A DNA stretch of 64,000 bases from NCBI RefSeq assembly GCF_014042015.1, contig NZ_CP059493.1, forward strand, positions 372,001-436,000, given 5' to 3'. Source of the stretch: Actinotalea sp. JY-7876. GTDB taxonomy: Bacteria > Actinomycetota > Actinomycetes > Actinomycetales > Cellulomonadaceae. Of the stretch, positions 20,633 through 42,730 are shown one piece after another. The first letter of the stretch is position 1; every line of letters begins with the position of its first letter. The notes below the pieces were generated by a model that searched no databases, was not told the DNA's origin, and saw only the letters and a list, made by a program, of their open reading frames with translations. The translations under genes and the position numbers were made by a program.

Positions 20633-20693
20633 GGCTCACCTCCGCTCACGACGTGGGGACCAAGAGGGGAGGTGGGACGTCGCCGGGCAGGCG

Positions 20694-21999: not shown

Positions 22000-22003
22000 A
22001 GCT

Positions 22004-22420: not shown

Positions 22421-22442
22421 GACGTGCCTTCCTGCGCGGGGA

Positions 22443-23883: not shown

Positions 23884-23959
23884 TTGGGCCTCCTCTCACC
23901 GCACCCGTGCGAGGGCGGCGCGCCGCCCGACCCGAGGGCCGGGCGGCGCGCCGTCGCGA

Positions 23960-24343: not shown

Positions 24344-24431
24344 GACTGATCCCTCCTCGGGACGTTCGTGATCGGGGGTACGGCCGGAGCCCGCCACGAC
24401 GTACGGCGGCGACGGGCCCCGGCGAGCGACC

Positions 24432-25847: not shown

Positions 25848-25975
25848 CGTGGTACTCCACTTCTGCCCCGTGGGGCGATCGTTGATGAGGGGTTCCCATC
25901 AGCGACAGGCGGTGCCCGGCCAGGCGTGTTGCGCGGCAGGCCCTTACGCGACGCGTTCGGGTGGGGGTGGTCGGC

Positions 25976-27930: not shown

Positions 27931-28109
27931 CGGGCGCTCCTGCGGGTCCGGCGACGGGGCGCCCGGTCGATCACGTACGACACCAGCAGCAGCCCGCCGC
28001 CGGCGACCGCGAGCGCGGCGGCGAGCCCGAGCATGACGCCGGCGAACACCGCGGCCGCGGCCACCAGGGCGAGCAGCCCGACCAGGTCCAGCAGGTCCGT
28101 GAGGCTCAT
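27927..28109 (-). CDS. Small two-TM protein between terminase and portal
   Basis: 60 aa, nearly all hydrophobic (DLVGLLALVAAAAVFAGVML, AALAVAGGGLLLVSYVI) with a basic tail RRRTRRSAR. ATGA-type overlap with portal start region. Function unknown. Confidence 0.6.
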   Translation of the reverse strand: MSLTDLLDLVGLLALVAAAAVFAGVMLGLAAALAVAGGGLLLVSYVIDRAPRRRTRRSAR

Positions 28110-28122
28110 GCCAGCGGCCTCC

Positions 28123-29637
28123 TCACTCGTCTGTCTCCGCGCCGCCGTAGGTCGACTCGTCGGGGTCGTAGTCGTCGCCCCAGAGCTGCACGAGGACGTG
28201 CCGGGCGAGCGTCACCGCGTACAGCGGGGTGATGTCCTTGAGCGACTTGCCGCGCCAGAACGTCCACGCGTCCCCGGTGTAGCGCTTCACGGCCGAGAAC
28301 AGTGCGCCGTCGAGGACCGAGTCGCCCATGTGCTTGATCAGGCCGGACAGCGCGTCGTCGTAGAGACCGCCGCACGCGTCGACCTTGTCCCGCAGCGACA
28401 GTCGCTGGACGATGAAGCCCTCGCGCTCGAGGTCCTTCTCGAGCGCCCCGGCGCCGCCCTGCCCGTCGATCGCGACGACGTTGCCGCCGAGCAGGCCGCG
28501 CAGCTGGACCAGGCGACGGACCGCCCAGTGCGGTGGGCCCTGCTCGTGGTCGATGACCTCGAGGTGCGCCCGCGCACCCGGTGTCTTCGCGGCGAAGCCG
28601 ATCGACGTCCAGTCGCGCTCCGGGGCGACGTCGACGCACCACACCGGCTCCCCGGTCCAGTCCGCCTTGTCCTCATCGACCTTGAGGTCGTTCCACGCGA
28701 GCCGCGGGATAACGGGGTCGGGCACCTTCGCGCTCGGCCACCAGCCGAGGTAGGCGCGGTCGAACTCTTCCGGCTCGTGCTCGAAGGACTCCATCGCGGC
28801 GCGGATCTTCGCCTCGGTGATCGTGTACCCCAGTGCCGGGTGGCAGGCCCACCACGTCGCGGGGTCCGCGCGGTCGGCACCGGCTGGCGCCGCGTACTCG
28901 ATCAGCGCCGTGCGCGAGACGCGCTGGTGCAAGGGCTTGGCGTTCTCGAGCTGCACGCGAGCGCGGGCCGCCTCGAGCTTCTGTCGCAGGTAGACCGACG
29001 ACGCGTCGCCGGCGGCCGACGCGATGTACAGCTGTGCGTCGGGGATCGTCGCCATGGCGGGTGTCATCGCCTGCTCGATGCGCGCGTCCGGGTGAGCGAA
29101 TGCCTCGTCGATCGCACCCTTGTGCAGGGACGGACCGTGACCGGAGGTCGACTTCACCGAGTCGATGCCCCAGGTCGCGCCGTTCGCGAAAGAGATCGCC
29201 TCCTGGCCGTTCTTGCCCGAGAGCCCCGGCTTGCCCGTCCTGCGCCCCACGCGCGGGTTCAGGAAGCTGCGTAGCGGTGAGGCGTTGATCGGCTCCCAGA
29301 AGTCGGCCTCGAGGCGCCCAAGGGCCATGAGCCGGTTCTGCGCGGTGTAGCGCACACGAGCCTTCGGCTTGAACAGGCACGTGTCGGTGAGCTCGGCGCG
29401 CAGGAGCGTCGTCTTCCCGCACTGGCGCAGCACCACGAGCAGGATCTCCTGGTACCACGGAAGCCCGGTCTCGGGGTCGATCTCGTGCGCGATGTCTGCC
29501 GCGAGGCGCTGCCACGGCATGAACGGGGTGCCGAGCCGGCGGCCGACCGAGGCGACGCGGCCGCCACTGGTCTCGCGCTGTGGGTTGCGCTCGGTGGCGT
29601 AGAGCGGGACAGCCTCAGGCCTGCCAGCCCGAACCAC
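28123..29637 (-). CDS. Terminase large subunit
   Basis: 504 aa from GTG 29637. ATPase: LRQCGKTT as deviant Walker A (about residue 70) and GAIDEAF as Walker B with catalytic Glu. Nuclease: acidic residues in WCVDVAPERDW, VVAIDGQG and LYDDALSGL. Packages DNA through the portal. Overlaps the small subunit by 23 bp. Confidence 0.9.
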   Translation of the reverse strand: MVRAGRPEAVPLYATERNPQRETSGGRVASVGRRLGTPFMPWQRLAADIAHEIDPETGLPWYQEILLVVLRQCGKTTLLRAELTDTCLFKPKARVRYTAQNRLMALGRLEADFWEPINASPLRSFLNPRVGRRTGKPGLSGKNGQEAISFANGATWGIDSVKSTSGHGPSLHKGAIDEAFAHPDARIEQAMTPAMATIPDAQLYIASAAGDASSVYLRQKLEAARARVQLENAKPLHQRVSRTALIEYAAPAGADRADPATWWACHPALGYTITEAKIRAAMESFEHEPEEFDRAYLGWWPSAKVPDPVIPRLAWNDLKVDEDKADWTGEPVWCVDVAPERDWTSIGFAAKTPGARAHLEVIDHEQGPPHWAVRRLVQLRGLLGGNVVAIDGQGGAGALEKDLEREGFIVQRLSLRDKVDACGGLYDDALSGLIKHMGDSVLDGALFSAVKRYTGDAWTFWRGKSLKDITPLYAVTLARHVLVQLWGDDYDPDESTYGGAETDE

Positions 29638-30145
29638 CCGCGCCGCCCTCCTGCGCGATGTCCGCGAGCATCGCGGCCGCGTCCGCCGCGAGGTCGCCCT
29701 CGCCCTCGTCGTCGTCGTCTCGTAGGCCGGCGAATCCGAGGAGCGCGAGGCGCTGCAGAACCTCGAGCTGCCGCAGCTGCACCGGAGAGACGAGGTCGAG
29801 GCGGTCGAGCGTCCCGATCTGGTCGAGCACCCGCGCGTTCAGCCGTCCGATGCCCACGAGGTGCCGGCGGAACGCGACACGGTCGTCCGGCTCGCGCAGG
29901 TCCTCGAGGAAGGCCTGCTCGAGCGGACCGGCCGGCGCCGTCATGTCCAGCGAGCCCGCCGCCGCCACGGGGGCCGGTGTGGGCGTCGTCGACGCGCTCT
30001 CCCCGGGCGCGTCCGTGCGCTCGACGGCAGCCTTCTGCCGCGCGCGCCAGCCGCGCATGTACTCGCGCTTCGCCGCCCGGCACACCTCGCACTTGCACCC
30101 CTGGCGGTACCCGGACCGGCCGTGGTTGGTCACCTCACGAGCCAT
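29615..30145 (-). CDS. Terminase small subunit
   Basis: 176 aa from ATG 30145 with GGAGG 8 nt before (a GTG at 30154 falls inside that site). Opens with a Cys/basic region GYRQGCKCEVCRAAKREYMR, then a disordered Ala/Pro part and a helical core LEDLREPDDRVAFRRHLVGI. Would recognise the packaging site with the HNH protein upstream. Confidence 0.7.
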   Translation of the reverse strand: MAREVTNHGRSGYRQGCKCEVCRAAKREYMRGWRARQKAAVERTDAPGESASTTPTPAPVAAAGSLDMTAPAGPLEQAFLEDLREPDDRVAFRRHLVGIGRLNARVLDQIGTLDRLDLVSPVQLRQLEVLQRLALLGFAGLRDDDDEGEGDLAADAAAMLADIAQEGGAGGSGWQA

Positions 30146-30276
30146 CCGCGGCACCTCCGATCACACGCCGTAGGGCATCACCTGGGGAGAGCCGTGGGGG
30201 GAGAGAGAACGGGCAGTGCGCGGGTCGCCCGGCCGATCTGCCCTCAAGAAAAAGTGCCGCCGACCTGCGGGAACGC

Positions 30277-30609
30277 TCAGGACAGGTCGGGCGGTGGAAC
30301 CGCTCGGGACCGAGGTCGAGGCGGCGTCGGCACGCCTCTGCGCCAGCCCGCGTTGCACCCGAAGTGCGCGGGCCGCAGGTTCCACGGTGCGGTGGGGTGG
30401 CCGCCGTCCTCGAGCCGGACGATGTGGTCCAGGCTCGGTCCGTGCGGATGGTTGTGCCGCAGCCCGAACAGGATCACGCGCTCGAGCTCGGGGTAGAGGC
30501 AGACGGGCCGCTCGCACAGCGAACCGGGCGGGCACAGCTCCTTGACCAGCCGACGCCACACGCGGCCCTGCCGACCCCGGCGCGGATCCCACTCGTGGAG
30601 CGACGGCAT
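30277..30609 (-). CDS. HNH endonuclease next to terminase
   Basis: 110 aa. HNHPHGPSLDHIVRLEDGGH and WNLRPAHFGCNAGW give the DH...N...H beta-beta-alpha metal fold; CPPGSLCERPVC may bind zinc. HNH proteins beside terminase are needed for cos cleavage in HK97-like phages, suggesting cohesive-end packaging here (inference). GGGGGGC is 3 nt before the ATG. Confidence 0.8.
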   Translation of the reverse strand: MPSLHEWDPRRGRQGRVWRRLVKELCPPGSLCERPVCLYPELERVILFGLRHNHPHGPSLDHIVRLEDGGHPTAPWNLRPAHFGCNAGWRRGVPTPPRPRSRAVPPPDLS

Positions 30610-30830
30610 GCTGCCCCCCAGCCCTGCACGGTCCTCGGCTTCGGCCGCTCGAGGCGGCACGTCGTTGGTCCGATCCGGTGCGCGAGCTGGGGTGCTTGTG
30701 GGCGGGGCCGGCTACGTCGGGCCGCACGACGCTCCGATGACCCGCACCCCCGTGCGGCCCGCCGACCCCTTGCACCCGCGCGGTGGCGGGGCGACCTGCG
30801 TCCCCGAGCGTCGCCACCCGGGAAGCACGA

Positions 30831-30856
30831 AGGGCCCGGCCGCTTGGCCGAGCCCT
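30831..30856 (-). terminator. 11-bp hairpin with tetraloop
   Basis: AGGGCCCGGCC / GGCCGAGCCCT with GCTT loop and one mismatch. Followed on the minus strand by TCGTGCTTCC, a weak T-tract. Only ~25 nt from the predicted start site, so it could end a short RNA or early readthrough. Confidence 0.55.
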
Positions 30857-30887
30857 GTCCGTGGGCATGACGTACCCACTGCGCGCG

Positions 30888-30917
30888 AGGCTACGTCGGT
30901 CGGGGGTCGCCCGTCAA
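30888..30917 (-). promoter_or_regulatory. Predicted late promoter
   Basis: On the minus strand: TTGACG (30917-30912), 18 bp, TAGCCT (30893-30888). Start near 30881. No other good promoter is seen between the early genes and the HNH/terminase operon. Confidence 0.5.
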
Positions 30918-31038
30918 CACCGGCTCGCCCTGGGTCCTGTCCTCGCACTCGGCCGCGAGGGATGGCACAGCGTGGGCGCCGCGCTCCGGGTGGCACCGAC
31001 AGTGCCAGTCCGACCGACCGTGGCCTACCCGGACAGCG

Positions 31039-31809
31039 TCACTCACCGGCGGCGCTCTCGTAGACGAGCCCGGTCAGGATCCTCGGCAGCCCCTCGTCAC
31101 GAGCTCGCGACGGCGTGCGGCGTGCGACACGCGGCTCGTCTAGCATGGCCGCGGTCGCGAGGCGGACGTGCTCACCGAGCACACCGATCGTCGCCGCATC
31201 CCACGCGGACCCGCAGCGCCGGCAGATCGCGGCGAGCGGCTCGATGACCACCTGCAGCCCGCCCACCTGAGCGCAGACCATGCACGGCACGTTCGGCTTC
31301 ATCGGTGCGGTGGCCCAGGTCGTCGTGATCCGAGCGTGCGACCACCAGCCGAGGACGTCGCGGTCGAGGTAGCGCAGGTCGTCGTCGTCGAGCTCGTGCG
31401 CGCGCGAGGCGATGAGGCGAAGGTCCGCGGGCAGCCTGGTCGAGTCGGCGCTGAACGCTCGAGTCACCCACCACCGGGACTGCCGTCGCATCGTGCGCAG
31501 CGTGTCAGCCGCGTCGAGGCTGCCCGGAGGGCGCGACTCGTGGCCGGTGCTGCTGCTCGTGCCGGCCGTCGAGCCGCCGGCGTCGCGGGCGAGCTGCTCG
31601 ACCAGGGGCGGGTGCACGACCGTGTGCGCCGTCGGGGCCAGGCGCACCTTCGGCCCGTAGCCGAGATCGGCGAGGTAGCCGAGCGCGTCGAGCGCCACCC
31701 ACTGCGTCCCGACGGTGGTCATCGGCTCAAGGAGGTCCTCGATCCGGTCGGTGATGCGGGCGGTGCGTGAGGTGCGGGCGTCGGTCGGGGGTCGGGTGTG
31801 CGTCGTCAT
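31039..31809 (-). CDS. Phage protein of unknown function with zinc-ribbon motif
   Basis: 256 aa. The C-terminal half contains CMVCAQVGGLQVVIEPLAAI followed by CRRCGSAW, a likely four-Cys zinc site. N-terminal half helical with ALGYLADLGYGPKV. Last gene of the early group, before the terminator region. No family recognised. Confidence 0.65.
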   Translation of the reverse strand: MTTHTRPPTDARTSRTARITDRIEDLLEPMTTVGTQWVALDALGYLADLGYGPKVRLAPTAHTVVHPPLVEQLARDAGGSTAGTSSSTGHESRPPGSLDAADTLRTMRRQSRWWVTRAFSADSTRLPADLRLIASRAHELDDDDLRYLDRDVLGWWSHARITTTWATAPMKPNVPCMVCAQVGGLQVVIEPLAAICRRCGSAWDAATIGVLGEHVRLATAAMLDEPRVARRTPSRARDEGLPRILTGLVYESAAGE

Positions 31810-32843
31810 CGGGTCTCTCCTCGGGGTCTGGTCGTGCGGCCGCCGCGGCGGCCCCTGCGGCGGCGGCCGCCTGGCGGCGGCGCCGCCTCCCTGCCCTCCC
31901 CGTCCAGGCCCTCCCCGACCCGACCCGTCCCGTCCCGTCCCGGTGTTCCCGTCGGCTGCACCCAGGCGTCCTGTCGCGTCCTGCCCGGGCCTGGCAGGTC
32001 CCTGTCAGGAGCGGTCGGCGCATCGGCGGGTCGCACGCGCTGGGGTGCGGGGTCCGCGGGCCGCGCGCTGCCGGGTCGCACACCATCGGGTGCGGTGTCC
32101 GGGCGCTGCAGCGGGGTGCCGGGCTTGAGGTCGGCGATGGACTCGTCCTGCAGCGGCGGCGGCGTGAGGCCGTGCTCGGCGAGCAGCGACGCGTAGCCGT
32201 TGAGCCACTTGCGGGTCGAGCGGGAGTAGTACGGGTGACGCGGCGCCGGCAGGAGCGGCAGCTCAGCGTCGGCCACCTCGAGCGGTCGATCGCCGCGAGC
32301 GCTGTTACAGCTCGAGCAGGCGACGACCGAGGTGTCGGGTGAGGCGGGTTGGCCGGGTGGGCGGTGGTCGTAGGTGCCGGCGAGCTTGCCGGTGCGGGCG
32401 TTGAAGTTGACGACCTTGCCGCAGTAGCGGCAGGCGTCGCCGTCGCGCATGCGGATCAGGACGGTCACGGCGGGGTTGCCGTTGTCGGCGCGGCGCTGCT
32501 TCTCCCACGCGATGACCTCGGCCGTCTTGATGTGGACGAAGTCGGGGTCGTTGAGCAGCTGAACGACGCGGCGCCCGTCGACCTCGACCGGCGTCATCAG
32601 CCCGGATGGCTCCGCGAGTGCGATCAGCCGTTCGGTGCGGGCTCGGGTGCCGCCGATGAGGCGCGCCGTCGCCATGGTGACGATGTAGTCGGTGGCGTGG
32701 GGGTGCTGCGCGGACTGCGCAGCGACCCGCATGAAGAAGCCGAAGACCTCGTCGACCGAGCCCTCGTCGGCCTCCGGGTGCTCAGCAACCTCGAGCAGCG
32801 CCGGGTACGTCGCTGCCGTGTCGCCAAGGCGGAGCCATGCCAC
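31806..32843 (-). CDS. HNH-domain protein of the replication region
   Basis: 345 aa. Starts MAWLRLGDTAATYPALLEVA, like actinophage replication-region proteins. An HNH/zinc region follows: DACRYCGKVVNFNAR, TYDHRPPG and VVACSSCNSARGDR. The C-terminal 100 residues are disordered, rich in Pro, Arg and Gly. Probably a DNA-binding nuclease or replisome helper; it takes the place where replication initiator genes often lie. Confidence 0.65.
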   Translation of the reverse strand: MAWLRLGDTAATYPALLEVAEHPEADEGSVDEVFGFFMRVAAQSAQHPHATDYIVTMATARLIGGTRARTERLIALAEPSGLMTPVEVDGRRVVQLLNDPDFVHIKTAEVIAWEKQRRADNGNPAVTVLIRMRDGDACRYCGKVVNFNARTGKLAGTYDHRPPGQPASPDTSVVACSSCNSARGDRPLEVADAELPLLPAPRHPYYSRSTRKWLNGYASLLAEHGLTPPPLQDESIADLKPGTPLQRPDTAPDGVRPGSARPADPAPQRVRPADAPTAPDRDLPGPGRTRQDAWVQPTGTPGRDGTGRVGEGLDGEGREAAPPPGGRRRRGRRGGRTTRPRGETR

Positions 32844-32903
32844 AGGGTGTTCCTCTCGATCGGTGCTGGTGTGACATCGGGCGGAGAGCCCTCACGGCGG
32901 ATG

Positions 32904-33491
32904 TCACGGGTCGCGAGCGCAGGCCGGGTGCATGGTGTAGGTCGCATCGCGGGCGGCCAGGACACCGTCGAGCGGGTGCCCGCACTCGGTGCACTTCGGT
33001 GCCTCGGCGCGCGCCCGGCCCGAGGTCTTCGGGCAGGAGCGGGCGTGCTGGCGGTACAGCGGCTCGTCGTCCGGCACGGTGTCGTGGCCAGCGACGACGA
33101 CGGCCACGGGCTTGCCCCGGACTTCCGAGCGGTACACCGACCCGTCCTCGCGCGGCAGCGGGTCCAGCGCAACGCGCTTCCCGGTCGCCGTCGTGACCAC
33201 GCGGATCGGCCAGCCGCAGTCCGGGCACGCGGTCGTGCCCGGCACACGCCACAGCGTCTGCTCAAGCGCGCCGAGCGCCTGCGACCACGTCTCGACCGAC
33301 GCGTCCCGGTCGAGGCCGGCCGCCTTGCGTACGAGCTTTCGGCGGCCCGCGTCGGCGACGGTCCCGCCGACGAGCGTCAGCTCGAACGGCTGCAGACCCA
33401 GGTGCGCCGCCGCGGCCGCGAGCGCGTCGGCCTTCCGACGCCGGTTCGTCTCGGCGTACTTGCTGTGGCTGTAGTCCTTCGCCGCCGTCAT
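32904..33491 (-). CDS. Zinc-ribbon phage protein
   Basis: 195 aa from ATG 33491. N-terminal basic region; ACPDCGWPIRVVTTATGKRV and a second CTECGHPL give two CxxC-type fingers. A Pro/Asp-rich middle part. The divergent membrane gene starts 9 bp away, so the region upstream of the ATG is not shared with another early gene. Confidence 0.65.
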   Translation of the reverse strand: MTAAKDYSHSKYAETNRRRKADALAAAAAHLGLQPFELTLVGGTVADAGRRKLVRKAAGLDRDASVETWSQALGALEQTLWRVPGTTACPDCGWPIRVVTTATGKRVALDPLPREDGSVYRSEVRGKPVAVVVAGHDTVPDDEPLYRQHARSCPKTSGRARAEAPKCTECGHPLDGVLAARDATYTMHPACARDP

Positions 33492-33500
33492 GCGGCGTCC

Positions 33501-34013
33501 ATGCCTGCGGGCCGCAACACGGGACTCAAGGGACGCCTCGGGTCCGCCGATGACAGGGAGGTGGGCCCCGCATTCATCGCCGCCGCCGGGGCGGTCCTGG
33601 TTACGTTCCTCGTGCATGGTTCTGCCTGGGGCCGTGACGGTCGCCGTGTTGCACGTGCGAAGCGCGATCTTGAGCTCGTCGCCGTCATGGAACCGGGAGC
33701 AGCGCGGGACCGGCTGCGCGTCCATGCTGAGCGCGAAGTGACACAGCTAGTCGCCTGGCGCGAGGCGCGGACAGGGACCGCGCCGTGGCGAGCGAAGCGG
33801 GACATAGCAATCGCGCGGAACATCGCCCTGGTGGGGATCGCGGGCTCCGCGTGGCTCGTCACCTTCGCGGTGGTGAATCCGGACATGTCCGAGGACGCAA
33901 GGATCGTCTCCGCCATCATGGCCGCGGTGCTGTTGGCCATCGCGGTGACGGCGATCGCGCTCACGTGGCGGGCGATCCGGGTACTCGAAGCTGCGGAATT
34001 GGACGAGGAGTAG
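33501..34013 (+). CDS. Opposite-strand membrane protein (moron) within the early operon
   Basis: 170 aa from ATG 33501. Three hydrophobic segments: AFIAAAGAVLVTFLVHGSAW, IALVGIAGSAWLVTFAVV and VSAIMAAVLLAIAVTAIALT. Between them a charged region VAWREARTGTAPWRAKRD. Codon third positions are less GC-rich than neighbours. It is transcribed against the early genes, as lysogeny-expressed extra genes are. No ribosome-binding site is seen; a GTG at ~33555 is possible. Confidence 0.65.
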   Translation: MPAGRNTGLKGRLGSADDREVGPAFIAAAGAVLVTFLVHGSAWGRDGRRVARAKRDLELVAVMEPGAARDRLRVHAEREVTQLVAWREARTGTAPWRAKRDIAIARNIALVGIAGSAWLVTFAVVNPDMSEDARIVSAIMAAVLLAIAVTAIALTWRAIRVLEAAELDEE

Positions 34014-34017
34014 CGGC

Positions 34018-34707
34018 TCACCGGTCACCCCGTAGGACCGTGATGGCGCGCTGCACCTCGTCGAAGAGGTACGCCGAGCCGCCGGTGTCGGGGTGCGTGT
34101 TGCGTTGCGCCAGGCGCGTGACCTGCGGGCGGTACGCGGGGTCCTCGAGGAGGCGGCTCGTGGCGGTCGCGAGGGAGTCGCCACGCAGGTCCGGCCACGC
34201 GGCCTTCGCCAGCACCTCGGCCGCCGCCGCGCGGCTCATCGGCGCGTTGGTGACGATCGCCGGGCCACCGCCGATCTGCCGGTAGCCGCGGTACTGCTCA
34301 CCCGAGCGGGCGGCGCCGTACCGGTCGACCGCCCGGAGCGCCTCGAGCGTGAGCGCGACGGCATACACGTTGTGCTGCCACGGCGCCTGCAGGCCCTTGG
34401 TGCGGTACGACGGCGCACCCGCGTACTGGTCCGAGCGGTAGAGCAGCGGGCCGTGCTTGGAGTCGAACGCGACGATGACGGCCGGGCTCTCGACGCGGGC
34501 CTGCGCGCGCAGGGTCCCGTCGAGGCGCAGGTCCTGCTCGCGGACGTCGACCTCGATCACCAGGCCGGTCGCGTCGAGGTGGTTCAGCTCGCGCTCGAGC
34601 AGGTCGCTGGCCTGTGACCAGGTCACCTTGAACTGCGACGTCGCGCGCTCTGCGGGCGCGCGCAGCCACGCGCGGTCCGACAGGGGCCGGGTCGTGTACT
34701 TCACCAC
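34018..34707 (-). CDS. Phage protein with C-terminal J-domain-like region
   Basis: 229 aa. GTG 34707 has GGAGG 7 nt before. The last 40 residues read YRPQVTRLAQRNTHPDTGG then AYLFDEVQRAITVL: the HPD motif between two helices, as in DnaJ. The N-terminal 180 residues are alpha/beta without recognised domain. A J-domain would recruit the host DnaK; the target (replication proteins?) is inference. Confidence 0.65.
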   Translation of the reverse strand: MVKYTTRPLSDRAWLRAPAERATSQFKVTWSQASDLLERELNHLDATGLVIEVDVREQDLRLDGTLRAQARVESPAVIVAFDSKHGPLLYRSDQYAGAPSYRTKGLQAPWQHNVYAVALTLEALRAVDRYGAARSGEQYRGYRQIGGGPAIVTNAPMSRAAAAEVLAKAAWPDLRGDSLATATSRLLEDPAYRPQVTRLAQRNTHPDTGGSAYLFDEVQRAITVLRGDR

Positions 34708-34976
34708 GGGGTCACCTCCGGGCGCGCGAGCTGGCCGTACAGGCGCACCTGGAGGCGGCTCGAGCGCGCCGCCGCGGAGTCCACGTAGACGCCGCCGAGC
34801 TCGGCGAGCAGGTGCCGGCCCGCCGTCCCGTCGCCCTGCGCGAGGGCGGTGCGGTCGATGTCCCGCAGGACCCCGCTGCCGGTCTGGACCAGGGCCATGC
34901 GTGCGGCGTGCATCTCCGCGCGCGACGTCGCGGCCGCGCAGGCGAGGAGCGCGTCGGTCGAGCTGAGGGCGGTCAC
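34701..34976 (-). CDS. Small helical phage protein
   Basis: 91 aa from GTG 34976, GTGA overlap. Helical: ALLACAAATSRAEMHAARMA. No family recognised. Confidence 0.55.
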   Translation of the reverse strand: MTALSSTDALLACAAATSRAEMHAARMALVQTGSGVLRDIDRTALAQGDGTAGRHLLAELGGVYVDSAAARSSRLQVRLYGQLARPEVTPW

Positions 34977-35497
34977 GAGGTGGCCCCGGACGCTTCGGCC
35001 TTCCGCCGCAGGGCGACGAGAGCGGAGGCCAGGTGCTCGGCGTCCGACGGCTCGCGTCCCGTCGCGCGCAGGATCTGCGCCGCTGCGACCGTGTCTTCGA
35101 GCGGTGTCCGCGGGATCGGTGCGTCGAGGTCGAGGAGCGCCTCGACCGCAGCGTCGATGTTCGCCGTGTTCGCGAGCTGCAGGAGCACGTCCGCGTGGCA
35201 CGACGCACCAGCCACGCACCAGCACGCGAGGTCCTTGCCCGCGAGCGCCGGCAGGCGCGTCAGGAGCTCGCGGTGGCGCTCGACCTCGTACGCGATCGAG
35301 CGAGCCGGCAGTGAGAGCCACAGGCGGAACAGGTAGACCGCGTGCTCGGCGTCCCGGACGGTGCCCCAGCCGAGGCCGTTCTCCTCGCCAACCGCGAACG
35401 GGTTGCCGAACGGGGTGCTGCGGTCGACCTTGACGGTGCCGGGCGGCATACGCCAGCCCTTCTTGCGGGACAGGCGCACGCGCCTGGGCCCGTTCAC
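34973..35497 (-). CDS. DUF4326-family protein
   Basis: 174 aa from GTG 35497. Typical DUF4326 features: STPFGNPFAVG near the N-terminus and GKDLACWCVAGASCHADVLL with the conserved CWC...CH. Found in many actinophages; activity unknown. C-terminal 60 residues are an extra helical tail. Confidence 0.75.
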   Translation of the reverse strand: MNGPRRVRLSRKKGWRMPPGTVKVDRSTPFGNPFAVGEENGLGWGTVRDAEHAVYLFRLWLSLPARSIAYEVERHRELLTRLPALAGKDLACWCVAGASCHADVLLQLANTANIDAAVEALLDLDAPIPRTPLEDTVAAAQILRATGREPSDAEHLASALVALRRKAEASGATS

Positions 35498-35742
35498 GAT
35501 GCGCGCCGCTCGGCGCGGGCGGCGCGGGCGGCACGCGCGCCGCCGGTCTCGCCGATCTGCAGCGGCTCGTGCTGCAGGAGCAGGTGCACGAGGTCCCTGC
35601 GGCCCGCTCGGAGCAAGCGCCGCTCGAGGCCGTGAGGGGTTGTGCCGAGCCGACGCGCGGCGTCGCTCATGCCGACGCCCCACGAGACGAGGAACGCGGC
35701 GTCCTCGATCACGACCTCGATCGGCACGGTCGCGACGCTCAC
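35494..35742 (-). CDS. Small HTH protein
   Basis: 82 aa from GTG 35742. GVGMSDAARRLGTTPHGLER reads as an HTH. C-terminus is Arg/Ala-rich. Coupled by GTGA on both sides. Confidence 0.6.
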   Translation of the reverse strand: MSVATVPIEVVIEDAAFLVSWGVGMSDAARRLGTTPHGLERRLLRAGRRDLVHLLLQHEPLQIGETGGARAARAARAERRAS

Positions 35743-36098
35743 CGGGCACCGCCCATGAGGCGGGCGACGGCCCGTGCGAGCTCGATGGCGCTGATCGCGG
35801 ACACCGGGACATCGCGGCCCACGTCGAAGCCCGCGCGAGCGAGCGCGTCGGTGATGAACTCGACACCCTCGTCGACCGTCATCGGCTCGTCCGAGTCGGT
35901 CAGCGCCGGCTCCGCGACGAGGTAGGGGACGGGCTCGTTGAACTCGCGCATCGTCACCGCGGCCGCGAGCGCAAGGGTGGCGTGCACCTGCGCGGTCGCG
36001 ACACCGTTCGCGACGTCGGCGTGGCTCGCGCGGCGGGTGTTGCGGGCGTGGTCGACGGCGCGGAGGGCAGCGTCGACGTGGTCCCGGTAGTCGGTCAT
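35739..36098 (-). CDS. Small phage protein, unknown
   Basis: 119 aa from ATG 36098, ATGA overlap with the clamp-like gene. Helical with acidic middle (LTDSDEPMTVDEGVEFITDA). No family recognised. Confidence 0.6.
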   Translation of the reverse strand: MTDYRDHVDAALRAVDHARNTRRASHADVANGVATAQVHATLALAAAVTMREFNEPVPYLVAEPALTDSDEPMTVDEGVEFITDALARAGFDVGRDVPVSAISAIELARAVARLMGGAR

Positions 36099-36952
36099 CG
36101 GGGTGCTCCGTCTCTGACGACGTGGAGGGTGACGCGGGCCGTGCCGCCTTCCTCCGTGCGGAAGATCGCTTCGGCCTGCGCCCGGAGGTCGTCGACGACG
36201 TCGCCGGGGACCTCGATCGGCAGCGGGCGCATCTGGGGCTTGAGGATGTCGACCCACCACGCGTGCTGCTCGTGGCTCGACTCGTCGACGGCGGCCGTGT
36301 CGTGGCTCGCGTCCGGGTAGGCGGGCACGGATCCGAGGAACGCGTGGCCGAGGCGCACGAGCGCGCGGTGCAACCCGTGGCCCGGGACGAGGTTCGCGAG
36401 CGCGGTGACGCCGCCGGCGTAGGCCTTCGCGGCGGGCACGAACCGTGCGAGTGCCTCGAGGTTCAGGCGCGCGGTCGTCGTGGGTGCGTCGAGGATCGCG
36501 CCGGAGAGGGTGAGCAGCTCGCGCGGCACGTCGGGGTAGCGGTCCTCACCGGCGGGCACGATGCGGCCGACGGTCAGGGACTGCCCGTCGAGGATCGCGC
36601 CGACCTCGGTGAAGGTGACGCGGCTCGTGCCGACGTGGATCTTCATCGGCTCGTCGGCCCACATCTGTCGGGCGTCTGCGTCGGACGGGCCCTTGAACAC
36701 CTGCAGGACCTTCTTGACCGCGTCGGCCGGCATGTCCCACGACGGGAGCTCCGCCTCCGTGTACTCGGGTCCCTCGACCCGGGCGAACGCGGACGTGCGG
36801 TGATCGGTGGCCCACACGAGCAGGGCGCCGGCGTCGGCGACCAGGCGGACACGGCCGAGGTTCGGCGTCTCCTCGGTCTCGCGACCCGCGTGGGGCAGGA
36901 CGGCCGTCAGGGCGGAGCGCAGGTGGCCGCGGGGAACCTCGATCGTCGTCAC
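36095..36952 (-). CDS. DNA sliding-clamp-like (DnaN-like) protein
   Basis: 285 aa. Starts TIEVPRGHLRSALTAVLPHA and continues VRLVADAGALLVWATDHRTS, the fold start of bacterial beta clamp domains; RLNLEALARFVPAAKAYAGG fits a later clamp domain. Shorter than host DnaN (about 370 aa). It may act as a phage clamp or decoy. The assignment rests on pattern similarity only. Confidence 0.6.
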   Translation of the reverse strand: MTTIEVPRGHLRSALTAVLPHAGRETEETPNLGRVRLVADAGALLVWATDHRTSAFARVEGPEYTEAELPSWDMPADAVKKVLQVFKGPSDADARQMWADEPMKIHVGTSRVTFTEVGAILDGQSLTVGRIVPAGEDRYPDVPRELLTLSGAILDAPTTTARLNLEALARFVPAAKAYAGGVTALANLVPGHGLHRALVRLGHAFLGSVPAYPDASHDTAAVDESSHEQHAWWVDILKPQMRPLPIEVPGDVVDDLRAQAEAIFRTEEGGTARVTLHVVRDGAPR

Positions 36953-37155
36953 GACGAGACCTCGTGCACGATGTCGAGGAGGTCGACGGCGGCGTGCAGG
37001 CTCGCCAGCTCCTCGGCGCGGACGGCGCGGGCCTCGCGCGTGTCGACGAGAATCTTCTCGGTCCGGGCGATCGCCTCGTCGAGGTCCTCGATCTCCTTGC
37101 CGACTCGCTCGATCTGGTGCTGCAGGGTGGCGGTGGCGGGGGCGAGGTCAGCCAT
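36949..37155 (-). CDS. Small coiled-coil protein
   Basis: 68 aa from ATG 37155, AGGAGA upstream. Heptad-like LQHQIERVGKEIEDLDEAIA. Function unknown. Confidence 0.6.
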   Translation of the reverse strand: MADLAPATATLQHQIERVGKEIEDLDEAIARTEKILVDTREARAVRAEELASLHAAVDLLDIVHEVSS

Positions 37156-38515
37156 GGTGGATCTCCTGTTCGGGGGTGGGTTCGAGGACGGCGAGCAGCT
37201 CGTCTGCGAGCGCGCGCAGGCGGGTGACGCGCAGGGTGGCGAGCTGGCGTTGAGCGGCCAGGAGCGCCTCGGTCGCGTCGACGACGTCGTGCAGCGCTGC
37301 CGCGACGTCGTGGACGGTGACATCGAGGACGTGCGTCGCCTCGAGGGGGTCGAGGGCGACGGCGTCTGCGAACGTCGGCGGCGGCAGGACGGGGACCGCG
37401 AGCGCGTCGGGCTCCACCCGCTCGGCAACCGCGTCGGCGTCGACGTGCCCGGCGCCGATCGCCGGGTTCGCGTCGGCGAGGTAGCGGACCGTGCGCGCGG
37501 TGCTCCTCGTCGCCTGGTCGCGGGGCTCGGGCCGGTGCCCGATCGCGTCCGGCCGGGCCTCGATGCCGTTGCGCGACATGACGCCCTGCACCTTCTTCGG
37601 GCTCACCCCGAGCTCGGCCGCGACCTCGGCCTGCGTGCGCTGCTCGTCGACGTACAGACGCCGGACCTTCGCGACGAGCTCGTCGTCGTCCTGTGTCCGG
37701 TTCTGGCCACCGGAGCGCAGCGAGCGGTCGTCGCGCAGCTGGACCCCGGCCCGGCGCAGCGCGTCACGGATCGTCTTGGGCATGCGCCCGTGCGCGCGGG
37801 CGATCTGCGGCGCCGACTGTCCCTCGCCGTACTCGCGCACGATCTCCGCGAGCTCGCTGGCGTCGAGCGTCCTGGGGCGGTCTGGCGGGACGGCTGGCGG
37901 TGCGGCCGACGTCGGCTCGGCGGGCGGGCTCGACAGCTCCGCGGGTGACGATGGGACGGTCGGCGGCTGCGACGGCGTGGGGTCCGCGCGGTGGCCCTTC
38001 GGGCGCAGCGTCACGCCCGCGGCCCGCAGGTAGTTCGCCACCGTCGTCGGCGAGATCTCGTACCGCCGCGCGAGGTCCGTCGTGCTGTCCCCAGCGAGGT
38101 ACGCCGTGACCATCGCCGCGGTCCGCCGGGTCCGCTCGTCCACTGTGGGCCGCGATCGCGGTGCCGGCTTCGGCGTCGGTGAGGCAGGGCCGGGCGCAGG
38201 TGAGGTCACAGCAGGGGGGATGGTGGCCCCCGCTCGCTCACCTTCGTTGCCGGACGCCGTCGTGGTCCGGTCGCCGGCGGACGTTGACGCCCGGCCCTCG
38301 GTCATCGGGTAGTCCGCCGCGACCTCGCGAGCGCGACGCTCACGCTCCGCCTGGCCGCGGCCCTGCCTGCGCTCCTCGATGCGCTTACGCCACGCCTCGA
38401 CGTCCGTCGTGCGCTCCTCGGTGGGCAGGTCCGGCGGTGCCGCGTTCGCGAGGTTGGAGCCGTTGCCGTGGCCAGCCGAGCTGCGCTCGAGGGTGCCCAT
38501 GCGTGCGCCGCTCAC
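37148..38515 (-). CDS. Triple helix-turn-helix DNA-binding protein
   Basis: 455 aa from GTG 38515 (GTGA overlap; ATG 38500 is an alternative). After a disordered N-terminus, three similar HTH units occur: TTDLARRYEISPTTVANYLR, SAPQIARAHGRMPKTIRDAL and TQAEVAAELGVSPKKVQGVM, spaced 70-100 residues by Pro-rich linkers. It likely binds a multi-site DNA target, e.g. replication origin or partition site, next to the ParB-like protein. Confidence 0.65.
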   Translation of the reverse strand: MSGARMGTLERSSAGHGNGSNLANAAPPDLPTEERTTDVEAWRKRIEERRQGRGQAERERRAREVAADYPMTEGRASTSAGDRTTTASGNEGERAGATIPPAVTSPAPGPASPTPKPAPRSRPTVDERTRRTAAMVTAYLAGDSTTDLARRYEISPTTVANYLRAAGVTLRPKGHRADPTPSQPPTVPSSPAELSSPPAEPTSAAPPAVPPDRPRTLDASELAEIVREYGEGQSAPQIARAHGRMPKTIRDALRRAGVQLRDDRSLRSGGQNRTQDDDELVAKVRRLYVDEQRTQAEVAAELGVSPKKVQGVMSRNGIEARPDAIGHRPEPRDQATRSTARTVRYLADANPAIGAGHVDADAVAERVEPDALAVPVLPPPTFADAVALDPLEATHVLDVTVHDVAAALHDVVDATEALLAAQRQLATLRVTRLRALADELLAVLEPTPEQEIHHG

Positions 38516-39969
38516 CGGGTGCCCGCCTTCGTCGCGGCGTCGTCGACGGCCTTCACGAAGTCGGCCTCGACGTCGGCGAGCGTGTAGCCCCAGCGCTCGA
38601 GGGCCCGCAGGTGCAGGGCGACGTCCTGACGGGTCGTGACGCGCCAGTAGTCCTTCGGCATCTGCGTCTCGGCGCGTGTGGCGGCGAGCGCGACGAGCCG
38701 GCGCATCGCGTTGTGCGGGGTCGTCGCCTCGACCTCGCCGAGCAGCTCTTCGAAGACGGTGTTCTCGCGGAAGTCGCCGGCGTTCCCCGGGCGCACCAGC
38801 TGTGCGACGTAGACGGCGACGTCGGCGGGGAACTTGGTGCGCTGCAGGAACTCGCGCAGGAACGCTCGGCGCACGGACTCCGCCGCGACCGCGGCCTTGT
38901 TGTTCGTGAGGACCCGCCGCCGCTCCGCCGCGGCGTCTCCGGCCATCGGGCCCGACGTCGCACCCGACGCCGACGTCGCCCAGCGGCTGACGTGACCGAT
39001 CTTCTTCCACTCGGTGCAGAACCACCGGACGTCCGCCTGGTAGGCGTGGTCGCCCGGTGCCGAGTAGTCGCGGTGGGCCAGCACGCTCGCGGCGTGACCC
39101 GGGCAGTCCGCGTGGTTCGTCACGGTGAGGCTCTTGCCGCCCGGCCGGTCCAGAAGCCGCTCAAGCTGCGCGTCCCACGGCAGCGAAGCGTCCTCGTCGA
39201 GCACCGTGGTGCCCTCGGGCAGAGACGCGATCGCCTCCTCGCGGACGGCTGTGAGGGCTCGGGCGGCGCGCGCGGCCGAGACGCGGTGCTGGAACGTGCC
39301 CGCGTCGTCGGTGTGCTTGAGCAGCTCCTTGGTGACCTCGGCGTTGTCCTCGAACTCCGCGAGCGCGGCGAGCTGGTCGAGCGTGAGGGTGGTGTTCTTC
39401 TTGAGCGCCTTCGCCGCGGTCTTGGACGCGGCGACAGCGAGCGCCGTGTCGACCACGGTGACGTCGACGCGCGCGCGCTTGGCGATCGACTCGGCCGAGC
39501 GGCCCATCAGCGAGAGCTGCTGGTACGCGGCCGCGGTCTCGCCGGCGGTGAGCGGCTGGCGCGCGTCGTTGGTCACGAGCTGGTCCCACAGCCGCGCCTC
39601 GTCGTCGCCGACCGGGGGCAGCATCGTGACCGGGACGGCGGGCAGGCCCTCCTCGAGCGCGGCGACGAGGCGGCGCTGCCCGTCGACGACGAGGAGCTGT
39701 CCGAGCGGGTCGCGCCGGCAGAGCAGCGGCACGAGCACGCCGTGCTCACGGATCAGCGCCTTGAAACGCGCGTCGAGCTGCAGGTCGGTACGCGCGTTCG
39801 CGTCCAGCACGAGCGTGCGGGGGTCGACCTCGACCCGCTCGAGCGACACCGTGCCGGTCGGCGCGGCAGCGGTCAGGGCGTCCAACGCGGTCGACGACGT
39901 CGTCGACGCCTCCGGGGCCGGGACCTCCGCCCGCTTGCGAGCGCGGGTCGGCTTCGCCGCGGCGGTCAC
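38512..39969 (-). CDS. ParB-like protein
   Basis: 485 aa from GTG 39969. ParB/Srx fold: VDPRTLVLDANARTDLQLDA, FKALIREHGVLVPLLCRRDP and LLVVDGQRRLVAALEEG. A KorB/HTH-like part follows (LMGRSAESIAKRARVDVTVV). The C-terminal 150 residues are unique. Could be a DNA-binding regulator, CTPase partition factor or nuclease. Confidence 0.75.
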   Translation of the reverse strand: MTAAAKPTRARKRAEVPAPEASTTSSTALDALTAAAPTGTVSLERVEVDPRTLVLDANARTDLQLDARFKALIREHGVLVPLLCRRDPLGQLLVVDGQRRLVAALEEGLPAVPVTMLPPVGDDEARLWDQLVTNDARQPLTAGETAAAYQQLSLMGRSAESIAKRARVDVTVVDTALAVAASKTAAKALKKNTTLTLDQLAALAEFEDNAEVTKELLKHTDDAGTFQHRVSAARAARALTAVREEAIASLPEGTTVLDEDASLPWDAQLERLLDRPGGKSLTVTNHADCPGHAASVLAHRDYSAPGDHAYQADVRWFCTEWKKIGHVSRWATSASGATSGPMAGDAAAERRRVLTNNKAAVAAESVRRAFLREFLQRTKFPADVAVYVAQLVRPGNAGDFRENTVFEELLGEVEATTPHNAMRRLVALAATRAETQMPKDYWRVTTRQDVALHLRALERWGYTLADVEADFVKAVDDAATKAGTR

Positions 39970-40148
39970 AGCGGCACCTCGCCCAGGACGAGCAGCATGA
40001 CCGCGGCGACGATCAGGGCGACCGTGATCAGCGCGAGGATGAGGACCGCGAGCGCCTCGAGCCAGCCGAGGTCGCGTGCCATCACCATGAGCCAGCCAAG
40101 CAGGAGGCCGGCCAGGATGGACGCGCCGAGCCACTGCCCGGCGCTCAC
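39966..40148 (-). CDS. Small two-TM protein
   Basis: 60 aa, GTG start, GTGA overlaps at both ends. SILAGLLLGWLMVMARDLGW and ALAVLILALITVALIVAAVM. Unknown role. Confidence 0.6.
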   Translation of the reverse strand: MSAGQWLGASILAGLLLGWLMVMARDLGWLEALAVLILALITVALIVAAVMLLVLGEVPL

Positions 40149-40885
40149 CGCTGGCCCCAGAGGGTCGTGATGGGGAACGTGCCCGGGATGGCCCCCGGGC
40201 CGTCAGCCAAGATCAGGCGCTCGTCGTCCGCCGGGTTGAGCGCCGCCCAGCGGTGCGCGATGTTGTCGGCCGTCCACGGCTCGACGTCGAGGGCGCTGCC
40301 GTTGCAGATCTCGTCGAAGTGGTTGACCGCCTCGGCGAACTGCTTCCGGTCCTGGTGGCCGTACCCGGTGATGTTCGCGTCCTCGTCCTCGATGAACGGG
40401 AACAGGTGGAGGTCGTCCCAGCGGGTGACGAAGTCGGCCGGGATGGCGGCGCGCGGCGCGCTTTCGGCGCGAGCGGCGACGGTGAGGATCTTGCTGCTGA
40501 GCCCAGCGAGCGCCAGGCCCTTGTGGCCGGTGATGTGCTCGTAGGCGCACAGGGCGGTGACGGCGACGTCGAGCAGCTCCTGGGCGACGTCGTCGAGGGT
40601 GTGGGTGACGCCCTTGCGCGGGTTCTGGCCCGTCGCGCCGATGTATGCCGCGATGACCTCCCCGTGCTCCTCGCTGATCTTCGCGAGGCGGCCCCACGTG
40701 ATCGCCTCGGGGTCGCGACCGGCGTTGCCTGCGTCGATCCAGAGGGACAGGGACACGAGTGCCTGGTGTGCGGCCAGGCTCACCTGGTGCGCCGTCTCGG
40801 TGACGGTCCTCTCGGGGTGCTGCTCGGCGATCGTGGGGGTGACGAACTGCCCCGTCTCGGCGTCGCGGTGTCGTTCGGTCGTCAT
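40145..40885 (-). CDS. MazG-like nucleotide pyrophosphohydrolase
   Basis: 246 aa. ITWGRLAKISEEHGEVIAAY and LDDVAQELLDVAVTALCAYE give the EExxE...ExxD metal motif of MazG-like enzymes. It would hydrolyse NTPs or (p)ppGpp. C-terminal 120 residues are unrelated. Phage MazG often adjusts host nucleotide state during infection. Confidence 0.75.
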   Translation of the reverse strand: MTTERHRDAETGQFVTPTIAEQHPERTVTETAHQVSLAAHQALVSLSLWIDAGNAGRDPEAITWGRLAKISEEHGEVIAAYIGATGQNPRKGVTHTLDDVAQELLDVAVTALCAYEHITGHKGLALAGLSSKILTVAARAESAPRAAIPADFVTRWDDLHLFPFIEDEDANITGYGHQDRKQFAEAVNHFDEICNGSALDVEPWTADNIAHRWAALNPADDERLILADGPGAIPGTFPITTLWGQR

Positions 40886-41238
40886 CGCTTGTTCCGTCTC
40901 CGCTGGGTCATCGTGGCCAGCTGCTCGGCGGTGACCTGCTGGGGGCAGGTCTCGAAGTGGATGTGGTGGGGTGCCTCGATCGCGTCGTCGAGCGGGCGGT
41001 CGGGGGTGATGAGCCGCGCGGAGCCCTTGCCCTGCAGCACCGCGTAGTTCGCCGTCGCGTACCCCGACGAGCCCGGCACGGCCGGCGCCCGGTCGAACGG
41101 CAGGACGGAGCGGGGTCCGGTCCGCACCGGCCGGTCCGGGTCAGCCGCGGCCTCACGGGGCACATACGGGACCCAGATCAGCGGCGCACCGCAGATGCAG
41201 GAACGCGTCCGGGACCGGGCGCGGCGACGGGCGCTCAC
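40882..41238 (-). CDS. Small phage protein with CxC motif
   Basis: 118 aa, GTG start. SCICGAPLIWVPYVP near the N-terminus and HHIHFETCPQQVTAEQLATM near the C-terminus; the Cys and His residues may bind zinc. Confidence 0.6.
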   Translation of the reverse strand: MSARRRARSRTRSCICGAPLIWVPYVPREAAADPDRPVRTGPRSVLPFDRAPAVPGSSGYATANYAVLQGKGSARLITPDRPLDDAIEAPHHIHFETCPQQVTAEQLATMTQRRRNKR

Positions 41239-41489
41239 GGCCCCTCCCCGCGACGAGCACGGCGCCGACGGGTCTCGTTCGTGATGACGCCTGACACAGC
41301 GGCGAGCACCAGGAGGGCGACGAAGGTCAGCACACCGACGTCGAGGCCCGTGCGCACAGCAGCCGCGACGAGCACCGCCTTCGTGCCGGCCAGTGCCGCC
41401 ACGAACAGGATCAGCAGCACCCAGCCGAGCAGCATCCAGCCCAGCAGCCGCGCCCGCTGGTAGCCGTCACGGCGCTCGTCGCGCCACAT
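41235..41489 (-). CDS. Small two-TM protein
   Basis: 84 aa from ATG 41489 (TGATG overlap). LGWMLLGWVLLILFVAALAG and GVLTFVALLVLAAVSGVIT. Unknown role. Confidence 0.6.
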   Translation of the reverse strand: MWRDERRDGYQRARLLGWMLLGWVLLILFVAALAGTKAVLVAAAVRTGLDVGVLTFVALLVLAAVSGVITNETRRRRARRGEGP

Positions 41490-41659
41490 CACGGCGCCAC
41501 GACCGCTCGAGCACGACGGGCGCCACCGAAGAACTGCGCCGCCCGGTGCGCCGTGTGGAACGCGACCGACTCCGTCGCCAGCCGGCGACGCAGCGCGGCC
41601 TCGCGCTGCTCCCCGAGCGCGATCGCGAGGCGGAGCCACGCGACGTCGGCCGCGGTCAC
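41489..41659 (-). CDS. Small helical protein
   Basis: 56 aa from GTG 41659, GTGA overlap. VTAADVAWLRLAIALGEQRE... Supported by coupling on both sides only. Confidence 0.5.
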   Translation of the reverse strand: MTAADVAWLRLAIALGEQREAALRRRLATESVAFHTAHRAAQFFGGARRARAVVAP

Positions 41660-41877
41660 CGTCGGCCCCCGCTGGTCGCCTCGATGAGGTCCATGAGGTC
41701 GTCGCGGGCCGCGGTCTTGTCGACGAGCTTTCCCCACCGGGCGGTCGCCGCGGCGACCTGCGGGGAGGAGGCGCCGTGGATCCGGGCGAGGGACGCCAGG
41801 CGCTGGTGCGCGGAGGCGACGAGCTCGTCGCGCGGCATCGTCGCCGCCGAGCGGATCGCGGTGGAGAGCTGGGCCAT
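41656..41877 (-). CDS. Small helical early protein
   Basis: 73 aa. First coupled gene after Cro; LASLARIHGASSPQVAAATA. Unknown. Confidence 0.55.
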   Translation of the reverse strand: MAQLSTAIRSAATMPRDELVASAHQRLASLARIHGASSPQVAAATARWGKLVDKTAARDDLMDLIEATSGGRR

Positions 41878-41953: not shown

Positions 41954-42256
41954 TCAGGGGGTGGGGTGGCTCTCGACGGGAGACGCGACGCCGAGCGGCG
42001 TGGGCCCCGTCGCGCTGGCGCTCATGCCGCGCTCGTCGTTCGTGGTCGGCGCCTCGAGGAGGGCGGCGGTGGGCACACCCAGCAGGGCGGCGATGCGCTG
42101 CAGCTCGTCCACGGTGAGCGCGCTGCGACCGGAGAGCTTGTAGGAGACGGCCTGCTGGGTCTTCCCGATTGCCTTTGCGATGAGCCGCTGCGTCACGCCA
42201 TGCCGCGCCATCTCGGCCCGGACGTTGCCGGTCACAAACTCACTTGGTTGCGCCAT
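41954..42256 (-). CDS. Cro-like XRE HTH protein
   Basis: 100 aa. HTH: QRLIAKAIGKTQQAVSYKLS. Clearly paralogous to the divergent repressor (NVRAE.AR, GKTQQ.VS.K shared, so the recognition helix is almost the same). The start follows the predicted -10 by 7 nt, so the mRNA is probably leaderless. First gene of the leftward early operon; expected to compete with the repressor for operators. Confidence 0.8.
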   Translation of the reverse strand: MAQPSEFVTGNVRAEMARHGVTQRLIAKAIGKTQQAVSYKLSGRSALTVDELQRIAALLGVPTAALLEAPTTNDERGMSASATGPTPLGVASPVESHPTP

Positions 42257-42263
42257 GCCGAGA

Positions 42264-42293
42264 TGTGTACCACCTGGATTGGTACAGGGTCAA
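42264..42293 (-). promoter_or_regulatory. Cro/early promoter with operator
   Basis: Minus strand TTGACC (42293-42288), 18 bp, TACACA (42269-42264). The dyad TGTACC-9-GGTACA (42266-42286) fills the spacer and -10, so a bound dimer would block the promoter. Confidence 0.65.
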
Positions 42294-42333
42294 TCTGTGA
42301 AGGGACCGCTGGTGGGAGATTCTCCGCTGACAC

Positions 42334-42362
42334 TTGTGGGCCACAAACGGTGTATGTACAGT
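42334..42362 (+). promoter_or_regulatory. Repressor promoter with operator-like dyads
   Basis: TTGTGG (42334-42339), 17 bp, TACAGT (42357-42362); ATG 7 nt later, so leaderless. TTGTGG-G-CCACAA (42334-42346) and TGTA-TG-TACA (42351-42360) are dyads overlapping it. Confidence 0.6.
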
Positions 42363-42369
42363 CGTCCTC

Positions 42370-42696
42370 ATGGCAGGAGACGTGATCAACCTCAGTGACG
42401 CCCGCGAGGCCCGGCCGTTCCACATGGCCGTCGCGGCAAATGTGCGCGCGGAGTGCGCGCGGCTCGCCGTCAGCCAGAAGGACATCGCTGGCGCGCTCGG
42501 CAAGACGCAGCAGGTCGTCTCGTCGAAGATGCGGGGGCAGACGCCCTTCCAGCTCAACGAGTTGGCGATCGTCGCGCCGATGCTGCAGATGACCGTGCTC
42601 GAGCTCATCGCCGGCGTGCGCGACCCGCGCCTGGGCGACCCGAGCGGTGCGGTGGAGTGGGCCCCGTGGGGTTCGAACCCACAACCTACGGATTAA
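42370..42696 (+). CDS. Putative immunity repressor (XRE HTH), prophage-truncated form
   Basis: 108 aa from ATG 42370. HTH SQKDIAGALGKTQQVVSSKM, then a helical region NELAIVAPMLQMTVLELIAG. The last residues (EWAPWGSNPQPTD) are encoded by the tRNA-Lys/att repeat and TAA at 42694 lies in the anticodon region of the tRNA. Phage-encoded only to 42691. In circular phage DNA the frame continues through 5686-5775 for 30 more residues (137 aa). Divergent paralogue of the Cro-like gene. Repressor identity is inferred from position and domain. Confidence 0.8.
   Translation: MAGDVINLSDAREARPFHMAVAANVRAECARLAVSQKDIAGALGKTQQVVSSKMRGQTPFQLNELAIVAPMLQMTVLELIAGVRDPRLGDPSGAVEWAPWGSNPQPTD
42657..42691. repeat. 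attR: attR core (right 35-bp direct repeat)
   Basis: Identical to 5652-5686. It supplies the 3' part of the restored tRNA-Lys from phage DNA. Confidence 0.95.
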
Positions 42697-42730
42697 AAGT
42701 CCGCAGCTCTGCCAGTTGAGCTAGAGGCCC
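42658..42730 (-). tRNA. tRNA-Lys, anticodon TTT
   Basis: 73 nt. Acceptor GGGCCTC/GGGGCCC with discriminator A; D arm GCTC/GAGC; anticodon loop CTTTTAA; T arm GTGGG-TTCGAAC-CCCAC. CCA is not encoded. Integration site of the prophage; the 3' end is phage-derived and functional. Confidence 0.97.

Follow-up and report, generated by a model that had tools for sequence, protein, structure and literature searches.

Why does a gene for a helix-turn-helix (HTH) protein run off the edge of a prophage and end inside a host tRNA gene? The question is raised by rep, the gene at 42370 of the window, meaning the whole stretch of 64,000 nucleotides analysed here, which comes from Actinotalea sp. JY-7876 and belongs to a genome consisting of a single 3.55-Mb contig. 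A first-pass annotation had proposed that the attachment site attP lies within a phage repressor gene and that integration exchanges a long form of the protein for a short one. Our comparisons point the same way: rep very probably encodes the repressor that confers immunity in a temperate phage whose switch depends on integration, and we infer that the short form represses and that the long form is lost.

The ~37 kb enclosed between two att repeats have the appearance of a complete prophage at a tRNA-Lys(TTT) gene (Table 1). The repeats, exact over 35 bp and offset by 37,005 bp, are the longest string common to both flanks, and the rep-side copy corresponds to the 3' part of the tRNA read by ARAGORN on the minus strand. 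Scanning 20 ORFs inside the prophage against PHROGs revealed major and minor tail, tape measure, major head, portal and large terminase proteins, together with endolysin, RusA-like, HNH and ParB-like proteins. A 37,227-bp IMG/VR record contains an integrase stretch 100% identical to the integrase of the window. No empty att site was found in 19 genomes of the same genus, in which the matches listed cover the core without the adjoining left flank. A minus-strand ORF (37148-39025), overlapping the ParB-like ORF (38512-40134), shows several HTH matches in its second half.

Table 1. Features of the prophage and its attachment site, with positions in the window.
Feature	Position	Strand	Basis or remark
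att core copy, int side of the prophage	5652..5686	+	exact repeat of 42657-42691; 35 bp
rep tail codons on the int side, in-frame continuation of rep across the reconstructed attP	5687..5778	+	tail resembles relatives' tails
166-aa ORF, start overlapping the stop of the rep long form (ATGA)	5775..6275	+	no Pfam match at E 0.01
tyrosine integrase (int), ending -REIA; true start probably near 6516	6300..7403	+	Pfam PF00589 E 3e-19
prophage body: tail, tape measure, head, portal, terminase, endolysin, RusA-like, HNH and ParB-like genes, others	7411..41877	-	PHROGs, 18 ORFs here
Cro-like HTH protein, divergent from rep	41954..42256	-	Pfam HTH_3 E 2e-9; PHROG transcriptional repressor
rep-cro control region, two candidate operators	42257..42369	.	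inverted repeats; putative operator function
repressor gene rep, integrated 108-aa form	42370..42696	+	stop TAA 42694-42696 is host tRNA sequence; PHROG transcriptional repressor E 2e-9
att core copy, rep side, within tRNA-Lys	42657..42691	+	exact repeat; ARAGORN tRNA call
host tRNA-Lys(TTT), intact	42657..42730	-	ARAGORN

In the integrated state, rep enters the repeat and ends within the tRNA after 108 residues (...GSNPQPTD), as first annotated and as reproduced here from the repeats, the ORF and the tRNA call. Counted from the core edge, its TAA starts at base 3, on the strand antisense to the anticodon loop of the tRNA. The longer frame was likewise recovered: joining 42691 to 5687, as in the reconstructed circular attP, gives a single 137-aa ORF ending ...LEGGVA; its TGA (5776-5778) and the ATG of the following ORF overlap. 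Residues 1-107 are common to both forms; these are followed in the short form by D and a stop, and in the long form by 30 residues of different sequence, a net gain of 29. At the predicted circular junction the core is followed by CTTACATG. Directly past the core, the host sequence is ATTAAAAGTCCG and that on the phage side CTTACATGTCCG. They are identical at 9 of 12 positions, and one of the mismatches changes the host TAA into the phage TAC. Because the host version belongs to the intact tRNA, strand exchange presumably takes place at these mismatches or to their left.

Given how GC-rich this DNA is, an open joined tail of 30 codons is weak evidence by itself, and another frame through the same junction stays open for 293 codons. 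The first-pass annotation had also argued that the frame is kept because the spacing of 37,005 bp is a multiple of three. The open joined frame stands, but we rejected the spacing as evidence, since every junction can be read through in one frame or another and relatives with offsets of 1 or 2 modulo 3 also give open joined frames. Judging from sequence comparison, a chance open frame is unlikely, on the strength of the relatives rather than of the window alone.

The 108-aa protein was searched in 200 genomes of the family, 41 of which matched, its own included. Nine other matching genomes were examined, then Cellulomonas uda (G144) and G090, the remaining matches being mostly weak HTH matches; regions of 5 more genomes were reached through the integrase. 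The search in these relatives was for an antisense tRNA at the end of rep and a second att copy (exact 18-mers). Nine lysogens paired cleanly, namely the window, G177, G069, G182, G050, Cellulomonas sp. APG4 (G008, counted among the genomes of the window's genus), Actinotalea ferrariae (G143, of the same genus and with an identical rep locus, paired across two contigs of one assembly), Nocardioides soli (G204) and Boudabousia (G209). Each of the nine has a host-side rep frame that stops at the core or directly beyond it, and a phage-side frame, beside the integrase, that is open for 12-48 further residues. Integration sites were tRNA-Lys(TTT) in four, tRNA-Lys(CTT) in three and tRNA-Asn(GTT) in two. 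In place of the host stop the phage carries TAC in the window, G069 and N. soli, TAT in Boudabousia, TGG in G182 and G050, TCG in G177, GAC in APG4 and TGC in A. ferrariae, a single base changing the stop codon in 6/9. The stop of the long form overlaps a possible start as ATGA in the window, A. ferrariae, G177 and G182, as GTGA in G050 and APG4, and as TGATG in G069 and N. soli; the Boudabousia long form ends in TAG.

Other relatives did not pair cleanly. In Nocardioides alcanivorans (G203) the HTH ORF runs on past the core without a stop there; exact 18-mers did not find the second att copy in G173 and G195 (20 kb covered in the latter), the HTH frame was not found at the tRNA in G079, and the repeat was not found in G214 and G215. 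The rep-side att of C. uda is damaged, so this genome was left out of the paired set, to which G090 does not belong either. For G050, pairing used the att copy next to int; a second repeat of 43 bp, farther from int, contains the stop and gives no tail. In the C. uda prophage, the tRNA-Lys at the rep-side att (L008, 1740-1800) is without its 3' part, and a tRNA-like sequence with a TTTTAA anticodon loop, read by eye just past the integrase (L141, ~2995), is possibly a replacement for the damaged host tRNA. At the int-side att copy of G177 (L045-L047; 40502 of the reversed region) ARAGORN reads a tRNA-Arg(CCG), and a tRNA-Leu lies ~1 kb away.

The sole Pfam match of the rep product lies below its cut-off. 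AlphaFold2 applied to 11 aligned short forms returned a confident five-helix domain at residues 17-81 (mean pLDDT 80) and low-confidence ends, one of which includes the att-coded part. The protein is thus predicted to consist of a compact HTH domain and a low-confidence end, whose att-coded part is probably flexible. The divergent Cro-like gene resembles rep (43% over query residues 20-82). Between the two genes, the candidate operators TGTACCA-N7-TGGTACA (42266-42286) and TTGTGG-N-CCACAA (42334-42346) each have one match in the window, with 0.36 matches expected there when two mismatches are allowed and 0.03 when one is. A promoter scan of 42200-42400 found nothing.

Rep and int lie on the same strand with attP between them, and the Cro-like gene is divergent. 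The order cro, rep, attP, int proposed earlier is amended by the 166-aa ORF, which lies between attP and int, so that int does not adjoin rep. This position between the rep tail and int is also occupied by ORFs in GMA5 and phiGD21-1. The tyrosine integrase, ~295 aa from its likely start, uses the tRNA-Lys gene as attB and ends in -EIA, without an -AA tag. A tblastn search of 50,697 phage records gave 164 matches at E 1e-15, the best 30 of which are led by Gordonia GRU3, GMA5, McGonagall, Jeanie, EricDab and Emperor, followed by prophiGD43A-5 and then by M. smegmatis phages such as Taheera, Typha and Liefie. Identity to Gordonia CW or related phages and to cluster G phages is 40-47% among the matches listed. 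The Liefie repressor is 98.5% identical to that of Darionha, a cluster G phage according to the title of its report (PMC7225528). The integrase is therefore nearest to Gordonia CW and cluster G, groups with reported integration-dependent immunity, which supports the same reading here.

Besides BPs, Giles is a further example of a mycobacteriophage with attP within its repressor gene. Integration-dependent immunity is attributed to mycobacteriophage clusters G, I, N and P; in BPs, of cluster G, DNA binding is similar for the long and short repressors, and the long form, which has 33 more residues, is degraded (PMC4557955). Its core measures 35 bp, and a Cys codon becomes a stop through the adjoining host base (PMC9262239), as TAC becomes TAA in the window. 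BPs and cluster G, compared through Liefie and Taheera, share with the window a divergent control gene, rep, attP inside rep and int, the 35-bp core in a tRNA, a related integrase and a VLPGPW or VIPGPW tail, and the long form exceeds the short by 29 residues in the window against 33 in BPs. Unlike cluster G, the window has a repressor head that is not alike (0.09 to Liefie on our head-similarity scale), a tail ending in -VA rather than -KAS, one ORF between rep and int, and tRNA-Lys rather than tRNA-Arg as its site.

For the Gordonia CW phages, integration-dependent immunity, attP at tRNA-Lys and, in GMA5, an ORF between int and rep are described (PMC5559632). GRU3, GMA5 and McGonagall resemble the window in having attP inside rep at tRNA-Lys, GMA5 also in this ORF, and their integrases match that of the window best among the matches listed (43-47%); unlike the window, they have short tails ending in -AA and 17-kb genomes. 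In the M. abscessus elements phiGD21-1 (prophiGD21-1 being designated MabB) and prophiGD16-1, the divergent HTH gene resembles the window repressor (42-46%). The prophiGD16-1 record annotates attP within the repressor, and phiGD21-1 has rep, two small ORFs, the first of which overlaps the end of rep, and int, with a viral form of 140 aa; unlike the window, its tail ends in -AA and its integrase lies outside the best 30 of the 164 matches. By their description, the Bifidobacterium prophages Bb423phi2 and 689b-1 also have the repressor at one att end and int at the other, and a reconstructed viral form with 18 additional residues and an ssrA-like tail (PMC6109161). Arthrobacter phage Galaxy has a similar organisation, attP not being in the repressor (PMC5513430).

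What the removable tails have in common was assessed on 33 of them, 11 from prophages and 22 from phages, leaving out tails without a head (L090, L102, L118 and L123) and including those of C. rhizosphaerae and C. uda, although their two sides are unpaired. V[VI]VGPW or VIPGPW occurs in 4/11 prophage tails (the window, A. ferrariae, APG4 and C. rhizosphaerae); Liefie and Taheera have VLPGPW and VIPGPW, and EricDab VVVGPPW. The motif codons differ synonymously between tails (GGG/GGC/GGA, CCG/CCC/CCA, GTG/GTC), and att sites of BPs-type systems are said to need no arm-type integrase sites (PMC9262239), which together make selection on the tail protein the simpler reading. A hydrophobic segment [VIL][VIL]x[LFGV] is present in 10 prophage and 15 phage tails, with 2.2 and 3.8 expected by shuffling, figures that overstate the contrast because the pattern was defined after the tails were seen and some tails are related (Liefie/Taheera, PhrostedPhlake/Twister6). 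A stricter form of it was found in 8/11 prophage and 13/22 phage tails against 8/65 control C-termini, the controls being the last 28 residues of neighbouring phage proteins, unmatched in length. As pattern and sequence sets were picked by eye, these tail statistics serve as guides. Several repressor heads, in the window (42370-42400) and in relatives, start with a VINL-, LVPL- or VIPF-like segment resembling the tail pattern, and the two ends of the protein possibly pair.

The first annotation had remarked that the tail lacks a canonical LAA, and its end is indeed -GVA. An -AA end is found in 18/22 phage tails, whereas -VA recurs in Typha, A. ferrariae and G050, and Liefie and Taheera end in -KAS (-DKAS in Liefie). 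A final A or S is present in 9/11 prophage tails against 14/65 controls (Fisher P 0.0002) and in 4/24 ORFs of this prophage, picked by eye. According to PMC8092301, four integration-dependent M. abscessus groups have repressors without -AA, and five published integration-dependent groups an integrase without it. The missing LAA is therefore a weak objection, given the -KAS ends of Liefie and Taheera and these four groups. The substitution A135E, which stabilises the 136-residue BPs repressor, hits its penultimate residue (PMC4557955); this residue is A in Liefie and Taheera. A description of the tail motif was not found in the passages on integration-dependent immunity that were accessible in the literature.

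Whether heads, tails and integrases travel together was addressed by rank correlation over 25 hand-chosen systems, giving 0.11 for head and integrase, 0.13 for tail and integrase and 0.10 for tail and head (permutation P ~0.08 each); by these sequence measures, head and integrase similarity appear weakly linked. Clear swaps are seen between Gudmit and PhrostedPhlake (heads 0.88, integrases 0.15) and between PhrostedPhlake and Twister6 (heads 0.14, tails 0.60, integrases 0.92), and the window head is nearer that of G177 (0.35, integrase 0.31) than that of APG4 (0.21, integrase 0.62). The correlations did not bear out the tail following the integrase as a general rule, and EricDab and Emperor (integrases 0.90, tails 0.20) go against it. 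We tentatively suggest, as a possibility we would not yet favour, that the removable tails belong to one class of elements that conditionally trigger degradation or inhibition. Each would combine a hydrophobic [VIL][VIL]x[LFGV] segment (VIPGPW in the window and in cluster G phages, VIPL elsewhere) with a small residue at the C-terminus, usually A or S, -AA not being required. Such tails would be under protein-level selection, and attP, by dividing the gene, would make the DNA-binding head and the att-integrase side exchangeable, so that immunity type and integration site would be inherited separately.

For the window, gene order, integrase family, homologues, the host-supplied stop and the cluster G-like tail all agree with the integration-dependent repressor first proposed; against it stand the tail end -VA and the Int end -IA, neither of them -AA, and the Pfam match below cut-off. 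In circular DNA, attP in the 3' end of rep would yield the 137-aa form, whose C-terminal 30 residues would make the repressor short-lived or inactive, letting the lytic genes run. The integrase, encoded downstream on the same strand, would recombine attP with the 3' end of tRNA-Lys, after which the tail codons would remain at the other prophage end, host DNA would give TAA just past the core, and a stable 108-aa form would bind the rep-cro control region and maintain lysogeny. The long form would most likely be lost by proteolysis, and Int may be under protease control.

Part of this scheme could be replaced by a tail that inactivates the repressor without proteolysis, for instance because it prevents oligomerisation, or because its VIPGPW-like segment binds a partner. 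The frequency of the hydrophobic segment, a pattern chosen afterwards, and the lack of -AA in the window tail would fit, but the two BPs forms bind DNA similarly and the long one is degraded (PMC4557955), and we regard this variant as rather unlikely. The prophage might also be a defective remnant, its architecture old and its switch lost, and the C. uda relative with its truncated rep-side tRNA shows decay of this sort; an identical core, an intact tRNA and the tail, head, packaging, lysis and int genes still recognisable in it make such a remnant improbable here.

The two remaining explanations deny the switch or the role of rep, and both appear very unlikely. A repressor gene might merely end at the prophage edge, the tRNA giving its stop and the viral extension having no regulatory effect, which the open frames common in this GC-rich DNA would allow; such a coincidence sits poorly with the other codon found on the phage side of all nine paired lysogens where the host has a stop, with a motif common to several tails, and with their excess of A or S ends over other phage proteins. 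The resemblance of the divergent gene to rep, and the weak Pfam support, would equally suit a Cro-like protein or excision factor encoded at 42370, with the true repressor elsewhere, but in Guacamole, phiGD21-1, Liefie and Brujita the annotated repressor is the gene that occupies this place upstream of int.

Under the preferred reading of rep as an integration-dependent repressor, the phenomenon itself is already known, and the host group and the tail series appear to be new: no report of integration-dependent immunity in Cellulomonas was found in a literature search lacking most subscription journals. These results add a set of Cellulomonas-type prophages to the integration-dependent immunity systems reported in Mycobacterium, Gordonia and Bifidobacterium. 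They also provide a naturally occurring range of tails lacking -AA, from which the actual cause of the viral repressor's failure could be worked out, in prophages for which sequence alone predicts which host base makes the stop and which phage codon replaces it.
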